Of a DNA stretch of 64,000 bases, positions 2,625 to 49,264 are shown in pieces. Each line of letters opens with the position of its first letter. The first letter of the stretch is position 1. The notes below the pieces were generated by a model, which was not told the origin of the DNA, made no database searches, and saw only the letters and a program-made list of their open reading frames with translations. The DNA is from Oscillospiraceae bacterium. Lineage in GTDB: Bacteria > Bacillota > Clostridia > Oscillospirales > CAG-382. Both the position numbers and the translations under genes were made by a program. The stretch lies in contig SVRW01000009.1 of assembly GCA_015064625.1 (NCBI GenBank), forward strand, positions 1 to 64,000, given 5' to 3'.

Positions 2625-2680
2625 GTATATCCGAATCGGATGTGTTAAAATAACGTATATATCCGAATGGTATATATACT
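2625..2680. promoter_or_regulatory. Divergent promoter region with palindromic operators
   Basis: ATCCGAATCGGAT (2629-2641) is a perfect 13-nt palindrome. A second, imperfect copy ATCCGAATGGTAT lies at 2661-2673, 32 bp downstream, next to a TATACT box (2675-2680) facing the SLOG gene. Two operator sites spaced by about three helical turns suggest cooperative binding of the adjacent XRE dimer. Confidence 0.65.
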
Positions 2681-2715
2681 AATATTTTTTGTAAATTATG
2701 TAGGAGACATGAGTA

Positions 2716-3186
2716 ATGGAAAAAAATACCTGTTGTTTCTTCGGAAATAGAACGATAAAGGAAACCGAAGAACTGAAAGAAAAGGTAACTGAAATTGTTG
2801 AAAGGTTAATTGTTGATGAAAAGGTGGAGGCGTTTTTATTTGGAAGCAAAAGTCGATTTGATAGTTTGTGCCTCGAATTAGTGACGAAAACCAAAGAAAA
2901 ATACCCGCACATAAAACGAATTTATGTGCGGGCGGAATATCCATATATAAGCGAACATTACAAAGAGTCTCTGCTGAAAGAGTATGACGAAACTTATTAT
3001 CCCGAAAAATTACTCGACGCGGGGAGAGCTGTATACGTGGAGCGAAATCGTGAAATGATAGATAAAAGTAGATTTTGTGTTGTGTACTTTGATGAGTCTA
3101 CCGTTCCCACAACACGTAAAAGCGGAACAAAAATTGCTTTGGATTACGCCAAAAAGAGAAAAAAAGAGATTGTTTTATTTCCGTAA
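2716..3186 (+). CDS. SLOG-family (YspA/DUF1273-like) protein
   Basis: A 156-residue protein beginning CCFFGNRTI, the first strand of the Rossmann-like SLOG fold, followed by KVEAFLFGSKSRFDS (a glycine turn expected to bind a nucleotide-derived ligand), then IKRIYVRAEYPY and a C-terminal RKSGTKIALDYAKKRKKEIVLF that completes the sheet. SLOG proteins are thought to sense or process nucleotide ligands and often sit in stress or defence loci. Here it is under a divergent XRE regulator. Start chosen at 2716 because the ATG at 2709 is out of frame; TAGGAG lies upstream. Precise role unknown. Confidence 0.75.
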   Translation: MEKNTCCFFGNRTIKETEELKEKVTEIVERLIVDEKVEAFLFGSKSRFDSLCLELVTKTKEKYPHIKRIYVRAEYPYISEHYKESLLKEYDETYYPEKLLDAGRAVYVERNREMIDKSRFCVVYFDESTVPTTRKSGTKIALDYAKKRKKEIVLFP

Positions 3187-3414
3187 AACTGTGGTGAGTC
3201 CGTCGTGGTGAAGAAAATAGATGCATTTTGCACGGTGTGCGCTATTTTATTAGTTAAAGAAAAATGCGAAGCATTTTTTATCTACAAAGCCGAAGGCTTT
3301 GCCTGAACTTTCGATAGGAAAAAATAGTGCAGATTGGAAAAACCGAATCCGAAGCTGTACTGACGTACAGCGAGAGGTGAGGTTTTTTCAAAGCACAAAA
3401 CAAGAAATAAAAAA
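3187..3414. other. Intergenic region with short GAA-loop hairpins, no gene seen
   Basis: Holds two adjacent small hairpins with GAA loops: AAAAATGCGAAGCATTTTT (3260-3278) and CAAAGCCGAAGGCTTTG (3285-3301). They are similar in style to hairpin arrays elsewhere in the window. Nothing with a ribosome binding site and coding character was found. Confidence 0.6.
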
Positions 3415-3531: not shown

Positions 3532-5007
3532 TTACATCGAAAGGGGGAGGGTGAATGTGAAAGAGCATCCTTTATTCGTCCCCGACTCAACTGTAATCTT
3601 CTCTTTATGGCTATCGATAACAGTTTTAACGATAAACAGTCCAAGCCCCATACCGCTCTTATCAAGCCCGCGTGAGCGGTCAGATTTATAGAATTTATCG
3701 AAAACGTGGGGTACTTCTTCCTCGGGGATGCCTACTCCGTCGTTTTTGATTGTGACGAAGGCTTTGCCCAAGGCTTCGTCCTTTTTCAAATCAACGATGA
3801 GCATACCGCCTGTGGGGGAGAATTTAACCGCATTGTGAAGAAGATTGTAAAAGACCTGATGAATTGCATCGGGGTCTGCATTTACAATAATAGAATCGTG
3901 GTTTGGAATTTCAACATTCAGATGCTTGTCGTCTATCTGTCCTTCGAAGGTGAAAAGGGTTGATAACGCTTTTTCCGTAATATCGAAGGGCTTTGGATTC
4001 ATTTTCTGATTCTGCATCTTTGTTGTAGTAAGCAAAGTTGAAATGAGTCGGGATAGACGTTTCGTTTCTTCGGAAATAATTCCCAGATAATGCTTTTGCC
4101 TTTCGGGAGGTATTGTTCCGTCGAGAATACCGTCTGCAAAGCCTGAAATGGTTGTCATAGGGGTTCTCAGATCGTGAGCAACGCTGGCGAGGAACGTGTC
4201 TTTATGCTTGTCGTTCCGCTCAATCTTATCCATCATATCGTTGATGGAGTTTGCCAGATCGGCGATTTCGTCATCATAATCCGTTTTGAGTCTTATGCTT
4301 GTATCGCCCTCTGCATATTTGTTTACCGCATGACCTATTTCGTTGAAAGGCTTTGCTATGCGGTTTCCAACAATAACAATGGAGAAAGCCGCACCTAAAA
4401 GAAGCCATATGCAAGCGGTGATTATTGCGCTGAGAAGCTGAGTTCTTGCGGTGTAAATACCGTCGCTCATCGTTGATACAACCACGTACCCCATATTATT
4501 GTAGGTTTTTGTGTCGATTATGGGGAGAATAAATAAGTTGCTTTCTTTCTTGTCTTTTTCGTGGAACGTGTATTTTGCGGAAAAACCGTCATAGTCCTTT
4601 TTCATAATGCGTTTATCCGCTTCCTTTTTCAACTGTTCGGACAAGGATGCTTCTGCTCCGTCGCAAGCACTTGATGCAATGAGAATATTTCCAGCAGAAT
4701 CGTAAATATGAACACCGATGTTATCTTCTTCGTATTTCAATAAGCTGTGTTCAAATTGCTCTCTGTAAAGGTCGCAAACAACTGTTCCGGGCGTGCATTC
4801 GTGGTCGTCGTGGGCATCTTTGGCAAGCTCTGTGTATCCAAGCACCGTTTCTGCAATGCTTTTTGCGGAAAGGGTCATTATTGCCGCATCGGTATTTGAG
4901 GAGAATTTTGTAAAAATACCGTATGTTATAAGAGCAAAGAGAAGAATACCAGCAAGCACTATAAACGAAAAGGTCAGAATAATTCTTGATGAAATATTTT
5001 TAAACAT
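3532..5007 (-). CDS. Membrane sensor histidine kinase (orphan)
   Basis: A 491-residue kinase. One membrane segment lies at residues about 9-33, an extracytoplasmic sensor region at 35-185 (with several Cys, including ECTPGTVVCD), a second membrane helix at about 193-215, then a HAMP linker (NRIAKPFNEIGHAVNKYAEG). The phosphoacceptor motif is SVAHDLRTPMT. The HATPase domain shows the N box (QVFYNLLHNAVKFS), G1 (NDGVGIPEE), F box (VFDKFYKSDRS) and G2 (GMGLGLFIVK). No response regulator gene adjoins it; the only upstream neighbour in the same direction is the peptidase C26-like gene, 18 nt away, so its partner must be encoded elsewhere. AAGGTGA precedes the start. Confidence 0.93.
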   Translation of the reverse strand: MFKNISSRIILTFSFIVLAGILLFALITYGIFTKFSSNTDAAIMTLSAKSIAETVLGYTELAKDAHDDHECTPGTVVCDLYREQFEHSLLKYEEDNIGVHIYDSAGNILIASSACDGAEASLSEQLKKEADKRIMKKDYDGFSAKYTFHEKDKKESNLFILPIIDTKTYNNMGYVVVSTMSDGIYTARTQLLSAIITACIWLLLGAAFSIVIVGNRIAKPFNEIGHAVNKYAEGDTSIRLKTDYDDEIADLANSINDMMDKIERNDKHKDTFLASVAHDLRTPMTTISGFADGILDGTIPPERQKHYLGIISEETKRLSRLISTLLTTTKMQNQKMNPKPFDITEKALSTLFTFEGQIDDKHLNVEIPNHDSIIVNADPDAIHQVFYNLLHNAVKFSPTGGMLIVDLKKDEALGKAFVTIKNDGVGIPEEEVPHVFDKFYKSDRSRGLDKSGMGLGLFIVKTVIDSHKEKITVESGTNKGCSFTFTLPLSM

Positions 5008-6045: not shown

Positions 6046-6122
6046 ACATTATATATGCAAAAAGATTAAAATTCAAGTGGTTTTAATATTTTTTCTCAAA
6101 ATTTATAGTTTAGGTGATAATT

Positions 6123-8552
6123 ATGAAAGATGGTAAAATAATTATGAGATTTATAATAATGGCTTTGATTTTAGCTCTCCTTTGCTCTTGCGAAGGTATG
6201 AACATAGTTTCGGATATGAGCTTGGAGTCTTCCGAAGCTTTGGGAAGTGGAGAAAGCAAGGAAGAATCAACCTCGGATGACAAATCCGAAAGCACAGATA
6301 CGTCATCCGGGTTCACAGAAGATGACGTTACCATAGGCGGAGCAGATACGCTTAAACTCAGCGAGGCTATGGCGAATAATGATTGCTTTTGGGCGTTGAA
6401 ATTCGAGGATTGGATTGAAATATACAATCCTACCGACAAGGATATATCCTTGAGCGACTACCGCATAAGCGATGATGGTTCGGATATCAGAAAATATGCC
6501 CTCCCTGACGTTACGTTGAAGGCGAAGGAATATCTGGTGCTTACAGAATCAAGTCTTAACTTTTCCTTGAGTAAAGCAGGGGAGAGCGTTTACCTTTATT
6601 GCGTATCACAAAATTGTCTTGCTTCCAAACTTGATTTGGGCGTAAGCGAGAAAAATAAATCGTATACAGAAGACGGTGTTTCCGCCTATCCTTCTCCCGG
6701 TTTTGAAAACACTTACGAGGGATATATTTCCTACAGGGCTTCCGTGAAGGGCGGTCAAAAGCTGATAGTAAACGAAATTATCGCTTCAAACTCTACGGTT
6801 TATGCTATAGGCGGAGAGTATTTTGACCTTATTGAGCTTAAAAATGCATCATCTGAAAGCATAAATCTTTCGGATTATTACATTTCTGACGATAAAAACG
6901 CTCTTATGGCATATAAATTACCTGACGTTACGTTGAAAGCGGGAGGATTTTACGTTATTGCCGCAGACGGTGAAAAGGTTCCCTTCAAGCTTTCAAGCTC
7001 GGGAGACGGAGTTTATCTTACGTATAAGGACGGACTTCCTGCAGATGCGTTATGCTTCGATTCATGTCCTGCGGAAATAAGCTATGGGGTAAGCGGAAAC
7101 GAGCTTGTTTATTTTGCGAAGCCTTCCTTTGGCAGAGAGAATGGCGAAGGAGAAAAAGCGTTGACAAAGGACCCCGTTCCTTCCGTTAAAGCTGGAATTT
7201 ATGAAAATGCGTTTACTCTCACCTTTGAGGGAGAGGGCGATATGTATTATACAACCGACGGCTCTGAGCCTGATAAATCTTCCCTTAAATATTCGGGCGG
7301 TATTACCGTTGATAAAAATATGTCTGTAAGAATAAAGGCGTATGACGGTATTAAAATCCCAAGTAAAACCGTCACCTGCGCATATTTCATCAATGAAACG
7401 TCCACCTTGCCCGTTCTTAAAATCAGTGCAAAGGAAGATGACATATGGAGCACTTCTTCGGGAATTTACGCTAACCCGACTAAATCATGGACAAAAGAAA
7501 TAAACCTTTCCTTCTTTGTGGGCGGGAAAGAGGAATTCAACGTTGACTGCGGACTTGCCATGTTCGGTTCTACAGGCAGATACGAAAGTAAAAAGAGTTT
7601 TAAAGTCAAGTTCAGAGGAAAATACGGGGCTTCCAAGCTTGAATATAAGGTGTTTGAAAACCTTGATATTGATTCCTTTACCGATCTTGTTATAAGAGGC
7701 GGTTCGCAGGATTGGTATTTCTCGGGCGTTCGTGATGAGGTTGCAACTTCACTTGCACTTTCTGCAGAAACGAAATTGCTTGTTCAATCCTACAGACCCG
7801 TCATACTTTATATAAACGGTGAGTATATGGGTATATACTTTATTCGTGAACGTATTAACGAAGATTTCGTTGCAGCTCACCATAATACAAAGCCTGAAGA
7901 CGTTGCAATTGTACGTTACGGTTACCGTCTTGAAAAAGGCACAAGCGAGGATATGGCAGACTGGAACGCACTGGTGAAATTCATAAAAACGAAAGATATG
8001 AAAGACCCCGAAAACTATGCTTACGTTTGCGAACGACTCGACGTTGAAAGTCTGGCGGATTGGTATATTTTCAGAGCGTACGCAGGGGATCTGGATATTG
8101 ACAATATACGTTATTACAGAGAAAACAAGGATGCAAAATGGAAGCTTATATTCTTCGATTTGGATCTTGGATTCTTCGGAACGAAAAATCCGCTTACGAA
8201 AATAACAGGCTCATCAGAAGCTTATGCAAGCTATAACGTTCCTGTCAGATATCTGAAGGTGAATTCCCAGTTCAGAACGCTTTTCCTCACAAGGCTTGAG
8301 CATCATTCGAAAAATACCCTTGCAGACGATTACGTTCTCGCAAGAATCGATATGTTCGAGGATATGCTGGAAGCGGACATTCCTGCTAATAACGAGCGTT
8401 GGGAGGAAGCGTATATCAATGATGGAAAAGGCTCTTATTTCAATTATAAATTCTGGGTTTCACAGATGAATTATCTCAGAAGAATAGTCAAGAACGGAGA
8501 TCATAGCAGAATAGGACTCCTTATTGATGATGCGAAAAATGTATTCGGTTAA
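6123..8552 (+). CDS. CotH-domain lipoprotein with two lamin-tail domains
   Basis: An 809-residue protein starting at the ATG at 6123, which has AGGTGA 7 nt upstream (a GTG at 6114 is less likely). A lipobox-like LALLCSC follows the signal helix, then a Ser/Glu-rich linker. Two lamin-tail-like (LTD) domains follow: DWIEIYNPTDKDISLSDYRI and FDLIELKNASSESINLSDYYI. A chitobiase-C-like segment (MYYTTDGSEPD...YSGGITVDK) leads into the CotH region (FGSTGRYESKKSFKVKF, LRGGSQDW-like IRGGSQDWYFSG, YINGEYMGIYFIRERI, WKLIFFDLDLGF). CotH-family proteins are atypical protein kinases in spore coat; in clostridia such LTD-CotH lipoproteins are surface proteins of unclear role. It is monocistronic between repeat blocks. 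Confidence 0.9.
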   Translation: MKDGKIIMRFIIMALILALLCSCEGMNIVSDMSLESSEALGSGESKEESTSDDKSESTDTSSGFTEDDVTIGGADTLKLSEAMANNDCFWALKFEDWIEIYNPTDKDISLSDYRISDDGSDIRKYALPDVTLKAKEYLVLTESSLNFSLSKAGESVYLYCVSQNCLASKLDLGVSEKNKSYTEDGVSAYPSPGFENTYEGYISYRASVKGGQKLIVNEIIASNSTVYAIGGEYFDLIELKNASSESINLSDYYISDDKNALMAYKLPDVTLKAGGFYVIAADGEKVPFKLSSSGDGVYLTYKDGLPADALCFDSCPAEISYGVSGNELVYFAKPSFGRENGEGEKALTKDPVPSVKAGIYENAFTLTFEGEGDMYYTTDGSEPDKSSLKYSGGITVDKNMSVRIKAYDGIKIPSKTVTCAYFINETSTLPVLKISAKEDDIWSTSSGIYANPTKSWTKEINLSFFVGGKEEFNVDCGLAMFGSTGRYESKKSFKVKFRGKYGASKLEYKVFENLDIDSFTDLVIRGGSQDWYFSGVRDEVATSLALSAETKLLVQSYRPVILYINGEYMGIYFIRERINEDFVAAHHNTKPEDVAIVRYGYRLEKGTSEDMADWNALVKFIKTKDMKDPENYAYVCERLDVESLADWYIFRAYAGDLDIDNIRYYRENKDAKWKLIFFDLDLGFFGTKNPLTKITGSSEAYASYNVPVRYLKVNSQFRTLFLTRLEHHSKNTLADDYVLARIDMFEDMLEADIPANNERWEEAYINDGKGSYFNYKFWVSQMNYLRRIVKNGDHSRIGLLIDDAKNVFG

Positions 8553-44505: not shown

Positions 44506-44650
44506 GAGGGTGTATCTCAGCCCTGAATGAGAAACTTAATAAGTGAACTTCTCTTGGTTCGTTCAAGAAAGTTAAAAGTGAGTGTTTCGCTGCTCGAAAA
44601 GCGAAAGTTATATGATGAGGGCAAGGCATACTTGCCCTCATTTGCTTTTT
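44506..44650 (+). ncRNA. ToxI-like antitoxin RNA with 36-nt tandem repeats
   Basis: Three repeat starts, GAAACTTAATAAGTGA (44531), GAAAGTTAAAAGTGA (44567) and GAAAGTTATATGATGA (44603), are spaced exactly 36 nt apart. Each is preceded or followed by a hairpin (CTTCTCTTG/CAAGAAAG; TTTCGCT/AGCGAAA). The array runs into the terminator at 44617 and then toxN. Promoter, 2-3 repeats of 35-36 nt, terminator and toxin is the layout of ToxIN/AbiQ systems, in which the toxin cuts the repeat RNA into units that inhibit it. The repeat cores are only moderately conserved beyond the GAAASTTA box, and the last repeat merges with the terminator. The 5' end is inferred from the promoter. Confidence 0.75.
44617..44650 (+). 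terminator. Attenuating terminator between antitoxin RNA and toxN
   Basis: Stem GAGGGCAAG/CTTGCCCTC with a 5-nt loop, then ATTTGCTTTTT. The toxN ribosome binding site CGGAGG starts at the next base, so toxin is made only by readthrough. Confidence 0.88.
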
Positions 44651-44661
44651 CGGAGGATACT

Positions 44662-45150
44662 ATGGACAATATAAAATTTTACGAAATTAACAAAAAATAT
44701 ATTACATATCTTTCTGCGTATGCACCGCATATGTTTCAGAATAAGAAAGATTCACAAAAAAATGAGAGAAAATATATTGGTATCGTTTTTCGGATTAACG
44801 ATTTTGATTATTTTGCTCCACTTTCTTCATTCAAGGACAAGCATAGGATGATGAAAGAAGGGATTGATTTTATTAAAGTAAAAGATTACGCCGTCATCAA
44901 TTTGAATAATATGTTTCCTGTTCCGCTTGGTGAAAGCAAATACGTCGATATCAGAAACGAACGAGATCCGCATTACCGTGCTTTACTGCTATCGGAATAT
45001 CGTTATATTAAGTCAATACAGGAGAAAATTTGGAAGAACGCGCAGAACTTATATAAAATTAAAACCAAGGACGGAGAAAATTCGCCTCTCACCAAGAGAT
45101 GTAACGATTTTATTTTGTTGGAAAAGGCTTGTGCTGATTATATAAAATAA
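44662..45150 (+). CDS. toxN: Type III toxin, ToxN/AbiQ-family endoribonuclease
   Basis: A 162-residue protein close to the family's usual 165-180. Start set at 44662 with CGGAGG 6 nt upstream; an open frame back to 44527 only translates the antitoxin RNA. Family landmarks: FYEINKKYITYLSAYAPHMF, RKYIGIVFRINDFDYFAPLSS (the conserved beta strand), KHRMM, IDFIKVKDYAVINLNNMFPVP, and a C-terminal SIQEKIWKNAQNLY helix. ToxN is an RNase held inactive by its repeat RNA and commonly gives phage resistance by abortive infection. Base composition is more AT-rich than the operon upstream, which supports transfer. Confidence 0.9.
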   Translation: MDNIKFYEINKKYITYLSAYAPHMFQNKKDSQKNERKYIGIVFRINDFDYFAPLSSFKDKHRMMKEGIDFIKVKDYAVINLNNMFPVPLGESKYVDIRNERDPHYRALLLSEYRYIKSIQEKIWKNAQNLYKIKTKDGENSPLTKRCNDFILLEKACADYIK

Positions 45151-45437
45151 AGAATACAAGCAAAAGTAAATTGTTTAATGCCGAATGTTTGCTTGACAAA
45201 TAACGATAAATGAAGTTTAATAAAGCTGCGAGACGGATTTGCAGAGGGGGTTACAGTACGAAAATACCCTTACGCTAATAAAAGCGAGCTTTTGAATTTC
45301 GGAAAAAACGTCAGACGAAGTAAGTTTCATTGGGAATCCCTTTTTCTTTTTCACATATAGAGGAAAAAATAGAAATAAGGGAAAAAATATATCGGACTTT
45401 CTTTGAAAATGAGAAAACCCGATTTTTCTTTAAAAAC
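45151..45437. other. Non-coding gap after toxN, no gene seen
   Basis: AT-rich with no credible ribosome binding site and open frame. It includes an isolated TTGACA (45193-45198) without a good downstream -10 box, and degraded-looking sequence; possibly remains of a former insertion. Confidence 0.4.
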
Positions 45438-45484
45438 ATGGCTAATCCAAAGCATAACTTTGGATTAGCCATAATTTATGCGGT
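45438..45484. repeat. Left copy of a 47-bp hairpin direct repeat
   Basis: ATGGCTAATCCAAAG ... CTTTGGATTAGCCATAATTTATGCGGT. It matches the copy at 49218-49264 at 44 of 47 positions, with all three differences in the hairpin loop. The pair encloses the XRE to RiPP module. On the minus strand it can also end transcription from the plus strand or XRE gene, but it lacks a T tract. Confidence 0.9.
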
Positions 45485-45522: not shown

Positions 45523-45792
45523 TTACGAATGTTTTTCAATAAGAATTTTTATGTCATGTAAAAGCTCCATGTCTTTTTGAGATATGGTTTCAAATTCGTC
45601 AAGTTCTAATAAATATCGAGGATCCAAGTTGAGAATTTGACAAATTCGCCTTAACTGCTCCATGCTTGGCTCTTGGATATCACGTTCGATTTTTGAATAA
45701 TTGGATTGATTCATGGGAATAAGCCTCGCCATGTCGCTTTGTAAAAGGTCCATATCTTCCCGCTTGTTGCGTATTTTCGTTCCAATGTTCAT
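45523..45792 (-). CDS. XRE-family HTH regulator of the RiPP-like module
   Basis: An 89-residue repressor-type protein: GTKIRNKREDMDLLQSDMARLI, NQSNYSKIERDIQEPSMEQL and CQILNLDPRYLLEL form the Cro/C1 domain; a short helical tail follows. It is divergent from the five plus-strand genes at 46058-49063. Repeated TAGTTA/TAACTA half-sites occupy the intergenic region, so it likely represses both its own and the operon promoter. It lacks the TPR domain of Rgg-type peptide sensors. Confidence 0.9.
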   Translation of the reverse strand: MNIGTKIRNKREDMDLLQSDMARLIPMNQSNYSKIERDIQEPSMEQLRRICQILNLDPRYLLELDEFETISQKDMELLHDIKILIEKHS

Positions 45793-45812: not shown

Positions 45813-45907
45813 GTTATCCTTTGAAAATATTATATTATTTTTAACTAAAAGCCTTGACAAAATGTGCAAAATGCGATATAATACAAATCGTAGTTAAAAT
45901 TCAACTA
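45813..45907. promoter_or_regulatory. Divergent control region: consensus promoter and TAGTTA operators
   Basis: Plus strand: TTGACA (45854-45859), 17-bp spacer, TATAAT (45877-45882), a perfect consensus. Flanking half-sites: TAGTTA near 45819, TAACTA (45842-45847), and the inverted repeat TAGTTAAAATTCAACTA (45891-45907) just past the -10 box. An untranslated leader of about 165 nt follows. Confidence 0.8.
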
Positions 45908-46057: not shown

Positions 46058-46282
46058 ATGCCAAGATGGAAACGCGATCATTATATGGACGCTTCTGGAG
46101 AATGGCGTAGCCCGAATGAAGATTATATTGATTATTCTGGCTCGTGGCGGTCACCAGATGATGATTATGTGGATTTTTCAGGAGAATGGCGCGGTGCTAA
46201 CGATATGTACATTGATGAAACGGGCTATTGGAGGAGGCCAGGTGAACGGTATATGGATCATTCAGGTTATTGGCGATGGTAA
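46058..46282 (+). CDS. Small protein of five 14-residue Trp-Arg repeats
   Basis: A 74-residue protein with AGGAGG 8 nt before the start. After a basic MPRWKRD start it consists of five repeats of the pattern Y-[MIV]-D-x-[ST]-G-x-W-R-x-[PA]-x-[DE]: YMDASGEWRSPNE, YIDYSGSWRSPDD, YVDFSGEWRGAND, YIDETGYWRRPGE, YMDHSGYWRW. There is no signal peptide and no Cys. I do not recognise a characterised family; the regular Gly and aromatic spacing suggests a repeating beta hairpin. As first gene of the operon it could be a structural protein, a binding partner or, less likely, a repeat-type substrate for the radical SAM enzyme. Confidence 0.85.
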   Translation: MPRWKRDHYMDASGEWRSPNEDYIDYSGSWRSPDDDYVDFSGEWRGANDMYIDETGYWRRPGERYMDHSGYWRW

Positions 46283-46404
46283 TTCAAGCATCCGAATTTA
46301 CAACAATTCTACAAAATCTGCAAAAGGCATAACGATAATACAAGAATTCAGCTCAAAAATATGTTTCTTTATTAAAAAGCATACTGAAAGGAAAATGTAT
46401 TAAT

Positions 46405-46857
46405 ATGTGGTTTGTTATTATTTTGATAGTTATTTCCGCAATTGTGGCGTGGTGGTTGAAGAAGAAAAGGTGGCGAAGGGAAGAAGCGGAAAAAATTCAG
46501 CGCAAATCCGAGGAAGATAGAAAAAGGCAAGAATACCAAAAGAAATCAGACCGAGTTTATGCTGAGAATTTCCCAAGATTATATGACCATCGTTCAACGT
46601 CAGAGTTGAGAAATATTCATAATCTACTAGAGATAATGCATTATAACCAATCGGATTTCAGAGTTCGGATAACGCTTGGGCCTGCAGCTGCTGGCGCATA
46701 TTGCAAGGCGCGGGATGAATTGTTGAAAGTGATGGGATATCCAACGTGGAGGCATTTGCTTATGAATGGCAAGATTGAATATATAGGATGGCCTGTACGT
46801 CCAACCTTGGATATGAACTATGTCTATGATGTGCTGAACTCTCGTGGAATATGGTAA
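46405..46857 (+). CDS. Membrane-anchored protein of unknown function
   Basis: A 150-residue protein with an N-terminal membrane helix (MWFVIILIVISAIVAWWL), a charged coiled-coil segment (residues about 20-48) and a C-terminal globular part containing RVRITLGPAAAGAYCKARDELLKVMGYPTW and LLMNGKIEYIGWP. I do not recognise the family. GAAAGGAAAA lies upstream. Its first 50 coding and leader bases are almost the same as those of the next gene at 46979, so the two share a duplicated 5' end. It is the second gene of the RiPP-like operon. Confidence 0.8.
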   Translation: MWFVIILIVISAIVAWWLKKKRWRREEAEKIQRKSEEDRKRQEYQKKSDRVYAENFPRLYDHRSTSELRNIHNLLEIMHYNQSDFRVRITLGPAAAGAYCKARDELLKVMGYPTWRHLLMNGKIEYIGWPVRPTLDMNYVYDVLNSRGIW

Positions 46858-46978
46858 ATTGTTTTTTGTGGATAGAAAAAATATGTTAAATTTATTCAAA
46901 CTAATTATTTATGTAGAAACAGCCGATTAGGATTTCAAGGATACGTTTAAAAGTATACTGAAAGGAAAATATATTAAT

Positions 46979-47500
46979 ATGTGGTTTATTATTATTTTGA
47001 TAGTTGTTGTTATTGTAGTTAAAGTGAAAAAAACAGTTGATAAAGCTAAGAATGAACAGCTCGACCGTGAAAGAATCGAAAAGAAGAAAAAGGCTCAAAC
47101 AGAAGCTAAAGCAAGATTTGAAGTGATAACTGATGCTGAGAAACAAAAACTGCTTGCTTGCGGCGAAGATGTCCTCTCTACCACGCTTAACGCGTTCAAT
47201 AAGGCGATTAAAGGTGATGCAGATGCAATGCTGTTTATGGCAATTACATATCAAGCAAAAATTCAAAACGCCAAGAAATCAGCTTATTGGATGCAAAAAT
47301 CGTCTGATGCAGGTAGTTCAGATTCGAAGTACTGGCTTGGTGAATTTTATGTGAGTGGCTACGGAGTACCGCAAGACAGAGTTAAAGGCGTATCTTTGAT
47401 TATGGACGCTGCAAGGGAAGGCAATAAAAAAGCCATACAATCGCTTAAGGAAAATGGCATGTCTGTTGCCGAGATGCGTTCGGTTGGTATTCCTGTATGA
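46979..47500 (+). CDS. Membrane-anchored Sel1-like repeat protein
   Basis: A 173-residue protein: membrane helix MWFIIILIVVVIVV, basic coiled coil (residues about 18-50), then two or three Sel1-type repeats (AIKGDADAMLFMAITYQ, NAKKSAYWMQKSSDAGSSDSKYWLGEFYVSGYGV, RVKGVSLIMDAAREGN). Sel1 repeats bind other proteins, so this could be a scaffold that keeps partners at the membrane. Its leader and start codons match those at 46405. Third gene of the operon, 128 nt before the radical SAM gene. Confidence 0.85.
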   Translation: MWFIIILIVVVIVVKVKKTVDKAKNEQLDRERIEKKKKAQTEAKARFEVITDAEKQKLLACGEDVLSTTLNAFNKAIKGDADAMLFMAITYQAKIQNAKKSAYWMQKSSDAGSSDSKYWLGEFYVSGYGVPQDRVKGVSLIMDAAREGNKKAIQSLKENGMSVAEMRSVGIPV

Positions 47501-47628: not shown

Positions 47629-48954
47629 ATGAAGTTATCGCAATTTAATATTCTCGCGCAGGCAGAGAATGATGAGAATACATATTTAATTTATAATACG
47701 CATACAACAGCGTTTGTAACGTTTGATAAACCTAAGTATGAGGAAATATTTATAAACAAGGTATTTTCAGATACAGATACCATTCAGCAATTAAAGAAAA
47801 TGGGGATTGTAGTTGAAGACGATGTTGATGAGTTACTTTTGTTAGAGAGAATCAGAGAAAACGGTATGAATGATCCTGTTCAGAACGTAACAATACTTAC
47901 AACAACAGAATGTAATGCAAGATGTTATTACTGCTTTGAAAATGGAATAAGACAGTACCCTATGACAAAGGAAGTAGCAGATGCAACAGTTGAGTATATT
48001 AAAAAGAATTATCCTGATCCTCTCTTTGCCATTAACTGGTTTGGCGGTGAACCTTTGATGAACTTTGACATAATGAAATACATAACAAAAAAATTGAAAG
48101 AAAACGGTTATGAAATAATTTCTCATATTACGACAAATGGTTCTTTATTAAATCAAGAAATAATTGATTATTTGAAAACTGAATACAGCGATTTATCATT
48201 CCAAATTACCATTGATGAGATTGGGGATGCTTACGGAGAAATAAAAGATTATATTGATATTGATAAAAAAGATGCGTTTAACCGAGTAATGAATAATATT
48301 GGACAACTGTTGGACAACGGGATTACAACTAACGTTAGACTTAATTTCGCAGCAAGCCAAATTAATAGGGCTAAAGAAATATATGTTGAAATAAAGAATA
48401 TTTTAAAAGACCACAATCAATCAACCTTATACATATACTTCGCTCCGTTGACCTTGGACGATGATAATGAAATTATCAGCAATTTTCACGGTGACTTTGA
48501 ACATCCTTTTCTGCAGGCTGTTAAAACACAGTTTGATTCTGGTTTTCCGTTATATAAACCAAGATATGATGGTGAAATGGGATTAATTGGTGCATTTGGG
48601 CTTATGCCTAATGCTTTTTCTTGCGGAATGACAACGAAGAACAGAATATCTATAGATGCAGACGGTAGGTTATATAAATGTCACAGATTATCAGGAAAAG
48701 AAAAATATTCGTGCGGTTCTGTTTTTGATGGAATTGATGAAAACAACGCAATATATAAAATGTTTAGGAATACAAAGATTCACGATAAAGATTGTAAAAA
48801 ATGCAACATTCTTCCTATTTGTCAGGGAGGATGTAAGTCTCAACGGATATTATACGGCAATAAGCAGAAATGCCATAGAATAAGACAAATACAAAGTGAG
48901 TTAGTAAATCTTTATTATAAAGAGGTATCAAAAACTCAGAATGGAGGTGAATAA
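47629..48954 (+). CDS. Radical SAM/SPASM peptide maturase
   Basis: A 441-residue enzyme. Residues 1-85 form an N-terminal domain typical of peptide-modifying members (probable precursor recognition). The radical SAM cluster motif is CNARCYYC (Cys95, 99, 102), with FGGEPLMN at 138-145. The C-terminal SPASM domain carries Cys332, GRLYKC ending at Cys351, Cys362, then C-x2-C-x5-C-x3-C (389, 392, 398, 402) and Cys415, enough for two auxiliary 4Fe-4S clusters. Such enzymes install thioether or carbon-carbon crosslinks in ribosomal peptides. AAGGAG precedes the start, and the next gene begins 1 nt after the stop and encodes a Cys-rich peptide, the likely substrate. Confidence 0.95.
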   Translation: MKLSQFNILAQAENDENTYLIYNTHTTAFVTFDKPKYEEIFINKVFSDTDTIQQLKKMGIVVEDDVDELLLLERIRENGMNDPVQNVTILTTTECNARCYYCFENGIRQYPMTKEVADATVEYIKKNYPDPLFAINWFGGEPLMNFDIMKYITKKLKENGYEIISHITTNGSLLNQEIIDYLKTEYSDLSFQITIDEIGDAYGEIKDYIDIDKKDAFNRVMNNIGQLLDNGITTNVRLNFAASQINRAKEIYVEIKNILKDHNQSTLYIYFAPLTLDDDNEIISNFHGDFEHPFLQAVKTQFDSGFPLYKPRYDGEMGLIGAFGLMPNAFSCGMTTKNRISIDADGRLYKCHRLSGKEKYSCGSVFDGIDENNAIYKMFRNTKIHDKDCKKCNILPICQGGCKSQRILYGNKQKCHRIRQIQSELVNLYYKEVSKTQNGGE

Positions 48955-48955
48955 G

Positions 48956-49063
48956 ATGAAGGTTATCAGAGACGGTTATTCAGAAGAAATGCTGAAAAAG
49001 GTTTTTGAACACGTAGCATCAGGCTCGTGCACAACTTGCTGTGATACTTGTTCTAATGACTAA
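48956..49063 (+). CDS. Candidate RiPP precursor peptide with CxxCCxxC core
   Basis: A 35-residue peptide that starts 1 nt after the radical SAM stop, with GGAGGTG 8 nt upstream inside the maturase gene, so translation is coupled. The sequence reads MKVIRDGYSEEMLKKVFEHV then ASGSCTTCCDTCSND. The first 21 residues look like an amphipathic leader; a Gly at 23 may mark the cleavage region, and the core contains Cys25, 28, 29 and 32 spaced C-x2-C-C-x2-C, with Thr, Asp, Ser and Asn as possible partners for thioether bridges (sactipeptide or ranthipeptide type). This is inference from position and composition; no protease or exporter gene is adjacent. I do not recognise the family. Confidence 0.8.
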   Translation: MKVIRDGYSEEMLKKVFEHVASGSCTTCCDTCSND

Positions 49064-49069
49064 AAACGG

Positions 49070-49105
49070 TTGGGCTGTGTCATTTTTCGGAGTGATACAG
49101 CTCTA
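49070..49105 (+). terminator. Hairpin after the precursor gene
   Basis: GGGCTGTGTCA and TGATACAGCTC pair with a G-U or mismatch, loop TTTTTCGGAG. There is no strong T tract, so it may stabilise the mRNA 3' end rather than terminate. Confidence 0.5.
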
Positions 49106-49217
49106 ATCGTAATTATCAAAGCACATTTTATAAGGTCTGCTTCTTTTATTCAGCCCATCATTGGTGTGGGCATGAAATTGTAAAAAAAGGCTTCAGAAAT
49201 CCTTGACAACATAAATT

Positions 49218-49264
49218 ATGGCTAATCCAAAGTACACCTTTGGATTAGCCATAATTTATGCGGT
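49218..49264. repeat. Right copy of the 47-bp hairpin direct repeat
   Basis: Direct-repeat partner of 45438-45484. Here the inverted repeat extends further: 23-bp perfect arms from CATAAATTATGGC (49210) to GCCATAATTTATG (49260). Confidence 0.9.

Follow-up and report, generated by a model that had tools for sequence, protein, structure and literature searches.

The 64,000-nt stretch of DNA analysed here (the window) contains a two-gene system in which a radical SAM/SPASM peptide maturase is directly followed by a 35-residue Cys-rich peptide. We regard this pair as a thioether-forming RiPP system of the ranthipeptide or sactipeptide kind with a probability of roughly 0.75, and we are highly confident that it represents a maturase with its substrate, whatever the chemistry. 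The first-pass annotation had proposed a candidate new radical SAM RiPP pair, which is now supported by homologous peptides downstream of related maturases in two other genomes (loci L032 and L034) and by the predicted RRE/rSAM/SPASM fold of the enzyme.

The maturase gene (47629..48954, plus strand) encodes 441 aa and ends with a TAA at 48952–48954. After a gap of one base the precursor gene starts with an ATG at 48956 (48956..49063, plus strand, 35 aa, MKVIRDGYSEEMLKKVFEHVASGSCTTCCDTCSND). Its Shine-Dalgarno sequence GGAGGTG (48943..48949, plus strand) lies inside the maturase gene, close to its 3’ end and six bases ahead of the ATG. An alternative in-frame ATG is present 15 nt further upstream (48941) but overlaps the Shine-Dalgarno site. 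Coordinates, strand and sequence of the earlier observation are correct, as is its description of a 35-codon gene coupled by GGAGGTG across a single base. The peptide comprises a leader of about residues 1–24 and the Cys core CTTCCDTCSND. The C-x2-C-C-x2-C pattern previously seen in the last 12 residues is formed by C25, C28, C29 and C32; the residues between these cysteines are Thr, Thr, Asp and Thr instead of Thr, Asp, Ser and Asn, with Ser33 and Asn34 coming after the last Cys. The precursor ORF matches no family in NCBIfam or Pfam, and a paralogous precursor was not found elsewhere in the host genome.

The Radical_SAM family of Pfam (57 bits) and the SPASM model TIGR04085 (55.2 bits, cut-off 27) place the maturase in the radical SAM/SPASM superfamily. 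Both the CxxxCxxC motif and the SPASM cysteine set are complete, as had been stated before. The former, C95, C99 and C102 (47911..47934, plus strand), binds the SAM [4Fe-4S] cluster; the latter, C332, C351, C389, C392, C398, C402 and C415 (48622..48873, plus strand), are predicted ligands of two auxiliary [4Fe-4S] clusters, and their spacing (C332-x13-G346-x4-C351, C389-x2-C392-x5-C398-x3-C402, C415) agrees with the SPASM consensus. All of them except C415 are invariant in a 25-row maturase alignment from which the precursor rows, scattered when added, were left out. The AlphaFold2 model of the enzyme has a pLDDT of 90.3, and among PDB structures its fold is closest to that of the SCIFF maturase CteB (5wgg, Z 26.2, residues 4–433, 20% identity), which is also the best sequence match there. 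Next are anSME (Z 24.8), ChlB (24.2) and TigE (22.7), with SuiB and EpeE also among the structural matches. The N-terminal region (about residues 1–80, 47629..47877, plus strand) is a predicted RiPP precursor recognition (RRE, PqqD-like) domain, recognised by fold ranking and not by a sequence model. When the first 83 residues were predicted alone (pLDDT 89), the top 14 VIA-align rows consisted exclusively of RiPP enzymes and leader-binding proteins, a number of which had been solved together with a leader peptide: TigE reached a Z of 7.5, TbiB1-leader complexes 6.1 and 5.8 and lasso B1 5.4, with SuiB and CteB also listed. Because these Z values are modest and Foldseek with this domain alone returned no match under E 0.001, the RRE assignment draws on the consistency of the ranking. 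PADLOC gave a generic radical SAM overlap with viperin as its sole result.

None of the NCBIfam maturase models reaches its own cut-off with the window maturase, and its three close relatives (L032, L033 and L034) likewise fit none. The highest score was obtained with the CefB family NF038107 (141.3 bits, cut-off 600), followed by the PapB family NF047865 (135.9 bits, cut-off 340), geopeptide TIGR04280 (124 bits, cut-off 400), TIGR04463 (124 bits, cut-off 525), Clo7bot TIGR04334 (117 bits, cut-off 600) and SCIFF TIGR03974 (98.6 bits, cut-off 425). As a control we used the canonical SCIFF pair ScfA/ScfB of the host, located on contig 13 of its genome (L002 1390–2999, minus strand), which passes TIGR03974 with 760 bits and the precursor model TIGR03973 with 76.5 bits; the failure of the window maturase is therefore not a fault of the method. 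Like SCIFF systems (ScfA/ScfB, e.g. CteA/CteB, ranthipeptides), the window pair combines an RRE, radical SAM and SPASM enzyme with one short Cys-rich precursor. However, the window precursor has 4 Cys in 35 residues and lies downstream of the maturase, shows no significant similarity to the host ScfA and does not match TIGR03973 (six Cys in 45 residues), and the host carries its canonical SCIFF pair separately on another contig. The similarity to PapB of the freyrasin ranthipeptides (136 bits) covers the rSAM-SPASM part, but the precursor is without the Cys-X3-Asp/Glu motif (PMC9413430). CefB (Cys-every-fifth peptide) is similar over the full length, whereas the window precursor departs from that pattern with a Cys spacing of 3-1-3. 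Clo7bot, geopeptide and TIGR04463 Cys-rich peptide maturases show full-length or N-terminal similarity and share the layout of a maturase with small Cys peptides, yet they have other precursors, and the window enzyme and its relatives stand apart from them on a supported branch.

A scan of 84,980 species genomes yielded three close relatives of the maturase: a Clostridia MAG (L032, 53% identity), a Bacteroidales MAG (L033, 40%) and Enorma phocaeensis (L034, 35%). As it relied on six short patterns, this search may have overlooked more distant or variant members. Including the window, the family as found comprises four genomes from three bacterial phyla. In the maximum-likelihood tree the window maturase groups with L032 and L033 (support 99), joined by L034 (93), apart from all other sequences. 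No further member of this clade was identified in 197 host relatives, 391 genomes of the class and 398 of the phylum, where the best other profile match scored about 200 bits compared to 763 for the window enzyme itself, the first query being also among the rows of the model. Nothing closer was found in the taxonomic families of L034 and L032. Likewise, tblastn in phages and plasmids gave no close relative (with the exception of one short piece, the best matches stayed under 30% identity), and a viral scan with the L032 maturase gave no match. Presence in three phyla and absence in near kin suggests horizontal spread, and the family is best read as a rare, sporadic RiPP family that no current catalogue model names.

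Related maturases consistently without a downstream Cys-rich ORF had been named as evidence against the pair; two of the three close relatives carry a homologous Cys peptide directly downstream. In L032 it starts 48 nt downstream of the maturase (MEVVKTGCTTEEIVALLENAADHSTMCSHCSCD), in L034 it overlaps the maturase stop by 16 nt (MKVLNKVSTKEAIKKLRSRPVSCDPHTMCPKCLVRKG), and precursor length across the three loci is 33–37 aa. In global alignments against 6,059–6,723 short ORFs from all loci, with alternative starts of the same ORFs set aside, the window, L032 and L034 peptides each rank one another highest among the ORFs of other loci. Positions M1, V3, E11, T27, C29 and C32 are invariant in the alignment of these three short sequences, which is gapped; common to them are a leader and a T-x-C-x-x-C motif, with two Cys and one Thr in the core. 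The proposed leader is conserved, while the symmetrical C-x2-C-C-x2-C emphasised in the first-pass annotation is not, and in this small sample it is a feature of the window peptide alone. The precursors contain 4, 4 and 3 core Cys at differing spacing, so the cross-link pattern is not predictable. In L033 nothing suitable is located downstream of the maturase. An upstream candidate (3765–3875, MIILKGVTDSEQLVSMYLTSYTSKTSLMGDCTYWCE) is similar by eye and weakly supported: out of about 6,000 short ORFs it comes 20th and 8th, and its precursor HMM score is below zero. Further upstream L033 also contains several Cys/Asp-rich short ORFs of MQNEYVS type (2640–3414), and its maturase has additional radical SAM genes next to it; these peptides may be substrates of the L033 maturase or of a neighbouring radical SAM gene.

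Short Cys peptides were also observed next to more distant maturases, directly downstream in L040, L041, L043 (four in tandem), L084 and L125, and upstream in L003, L035, L042, L075, L081, L107, L121 and others. They often start with MK-[VI/F]-[IV]-K. At some distant loci no Cys peptide was found within the stretch searched. Among ORFs of at least 200 aa from all fetched loci and the window, a Cys-rich short ORF with a ribosome site is located downstream of 9 of 114 maturase-like ORFs as opposed to 0 of 231 other ORFs, the window pair itself being excluded from both counts. The window enzyme is part of a wide radiation of maturases associated with Cys peptides. L043 and L041 lie on IMGVR_UViG_3300021431_002946, a sequence of 467 kb classed as viral which carries two radical SAM maturases, one of them followed by the four tandem peptides, here starting MK-x-IK; it represents either a giant phage carrying RiPP genes or bacterial DNA that was classed wrongly. 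L036 (PQ520162.1), labelled Enterococcus phage IME_EF3, has a radical SAM/SPASM maturase and by appearance an IS200-type transposase, and is probably bacterial DNA in an unverified record.

Around the gene pair the GC content is about 32–38% compared to about 40–44% in the flanks. This low-GC segment of 3.8 kb is bounded by two copies of a 52-bp palindromic direct repeat (45433..45484 and 49213..49264), which are 90% identical and 3.78 kb apart; in the right copy the inner arms of 23 bp are 100% complementary. The repeat core occurs only at these two sites in the 2.07-Mb assembly and is absent from all 69 relatives searched. The repeats look like the boundary of an acquired segment, which may be mobile and holds no transposase or integrase; alternatively, they are two duplicated terminator-like elements. 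Besides the gene pair, the segment contains a divergent XRE-family HTH regulator (45523..45792, minus strand, Pfam HTH_3 40.9 bits), a promoter-like site and genes for a 74-aa repeat peptide and two small membrane-anchored proteins. Judging from its position, the XRE-family protein possibly regulates the segment. The promoter-like site is a perfect sigma-70 match (TTGACA-17-TATAAT, 45854..45882, plus strand, 12/12) facing the rightward genes, and no terminator-like site was detected from there to 47700; it is possibly the operon promoter. The 74-aa peptide (46058–46282, plus strand) has its own ribosome site and consists of roughly five YxDxSGxWRxP-like repeats; neither Pfam nor NCBIfam matched it above noise. 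A 63-nt repeat (92%) at 46372–46434 and 46946–47008 covers the starts of the two membrane-anchored genes (46405 and 46979) and is a recent partial duplication; the gene at 46979 shows weak Sel1-like repeats. Directly after the precursor stop a strong RNA hairpin is predicted (49066..49110, plus strand, -26.1 kcal/mol, z -8.0), probably the 3’ end of the transcript or a processing element. No clear T run follows it; the L032 precursor is also followed by a hairpin, there with a T run. Rfam gave no credible RNA. To the left of the segment lies a gene for a ToxN-family toxin of a type III toxin-antitoxin system (44527–45150, plus strand, Pfam PF13958, 155 bits), near which TRF called no tandem-repeat RNA antitoxin. 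As noted earlier, no protease or exporter is linked to the gene pair; the nearest ABC exporter-like gene within the window is 9 kb off on the other strand, and a search of the assembly for Peptidase_C39 genes gave none. Taken alone, the lack of an adjacent exporter or protease is no oddity, as the host’s own 4.2-kb SCIFF locus shows neither exporter nor protease, a further likeness to SCIFF systems.

With just 35 codons and no database family match, the precursor could be a chance reading frame. In the 64-kb window, however, no other ORF of 25–60 codons combines a ribosome site with four or more Cys among its last 12 residues, and first-order random sequence of equal composition would hold 0.017 such ORFs per window. 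Its Shine-Dalgarno sequence is well spaced, and its homologues in two other genomes are mutual best among about 6,000 short ORFs, so that coincidence is practically negligible. Quite improbable, too, is a real short ORF that is no substrate, namely a co-transcribed small Cys peptide for metal binding or redox next to a maturase acting on another protein. CxxC pairs are metal binders in many small proteins, but here the peptide follows the maturase in another phylum and in another genome while the other neighbours differ, the peptides share a leader-like start, and the enzyme has a predicted RRE, a domain for binding precursor leaders.

The chemistry is a separate matter. The enzyme could form a C-C bond or catalyse epimerisation, oxidation or decarboxylation, with the cysteines serving as disulfides, metal ligands or later substrates. 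Several such reactions are known in the SPASM superfamily, ChlB, SuiB, EpeE and anSME are among the structural matches, and the core spacing varies as if the Cys positions had no strict geometry. We nevertheless consider this unlikely, since the enzyme in the PDB that matches best in full-length structure and in sequence forms thioethers, the conserved core residues are two Cys and one Thr only, and many of the distant relatives also adjoin Cys-rich peptides.

For the thioether-forming system that we favour, the RRE of the maturase would bind the precursor leader (MKVIRDG...), probably as an extra beta-strand, similar to the known binding mode in which the precursor inserts between helix 3 and strand 3 as a fourth strand (PMC7470986). 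The radical SAM cluster would cleave SAM to a 5’-deoxyadenosyl radical, which would abstract a hydrogen from a Thr, Asp, Ser or Asn acceptor within the final 11 residues. The thiolate of a core Cys, probably bound at one of the auxiliary SPASM clusters, would then form the thioether, leaving the peptide 2 Da lighter per bond. Precedent is given by SCIFF and PapB, where one RRE-bearing rSAM enzyme makes Cys-Thr or Cys-Asp thioethers (PMC8326336, PMC9413430). C29 and C32 with T27 nearby would be the likeliest minimal site, because T-x-C-x-x-C occurs in all three confirmed precursors; additional bonds may involve C25 and C28. Linkage to the beta- or gamma-carbon (ranthipeptide-type) appears somewhat likelier than to the alpha-carbon (sactipeptide-type), as the best-matching characterised relatives (SCIFF/CteB, PapB) are ranthipeptide enzymes. 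Unlinked proteins would either release the product or retain it. For SCIFF ranthipeptides, a connection with quorum sensing has been reported in solventogenic Clostridia (Chen et al. 2020, as cited in PMC8326336); for the product of the window pair an antimicrobial role is equally possible. We see a limited chance that the pair represents a new RiPP class with a minimal precursor of 33–37 residues, a new cross-link topology at T-x-C-x-x-C (for example nested Thr-Cys bridges, or bonds via both adjacent cysteines C28 and C29) and spread as a mobile cassette between phyla.

The pathway type is already known, while the maturase-precursor family itself is unnamed. The single-enzyme, two-gene layout is easy to express and, if working, would provide a compact tool for stapling peptides and a means of testing which of the T-x-C-x-x-C residues direct thioether formation. 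Many orphan radical SAM RiPP families exist, with which the radiation of distant maturases described here agrees. To these the present pair adds a maturase family missed by curated models, in which an RRE-bearing radical SAM enzyme is paired with a short precursor, and it illustrates that curated cut-offs leave whole maturase-precursor clades without a name.
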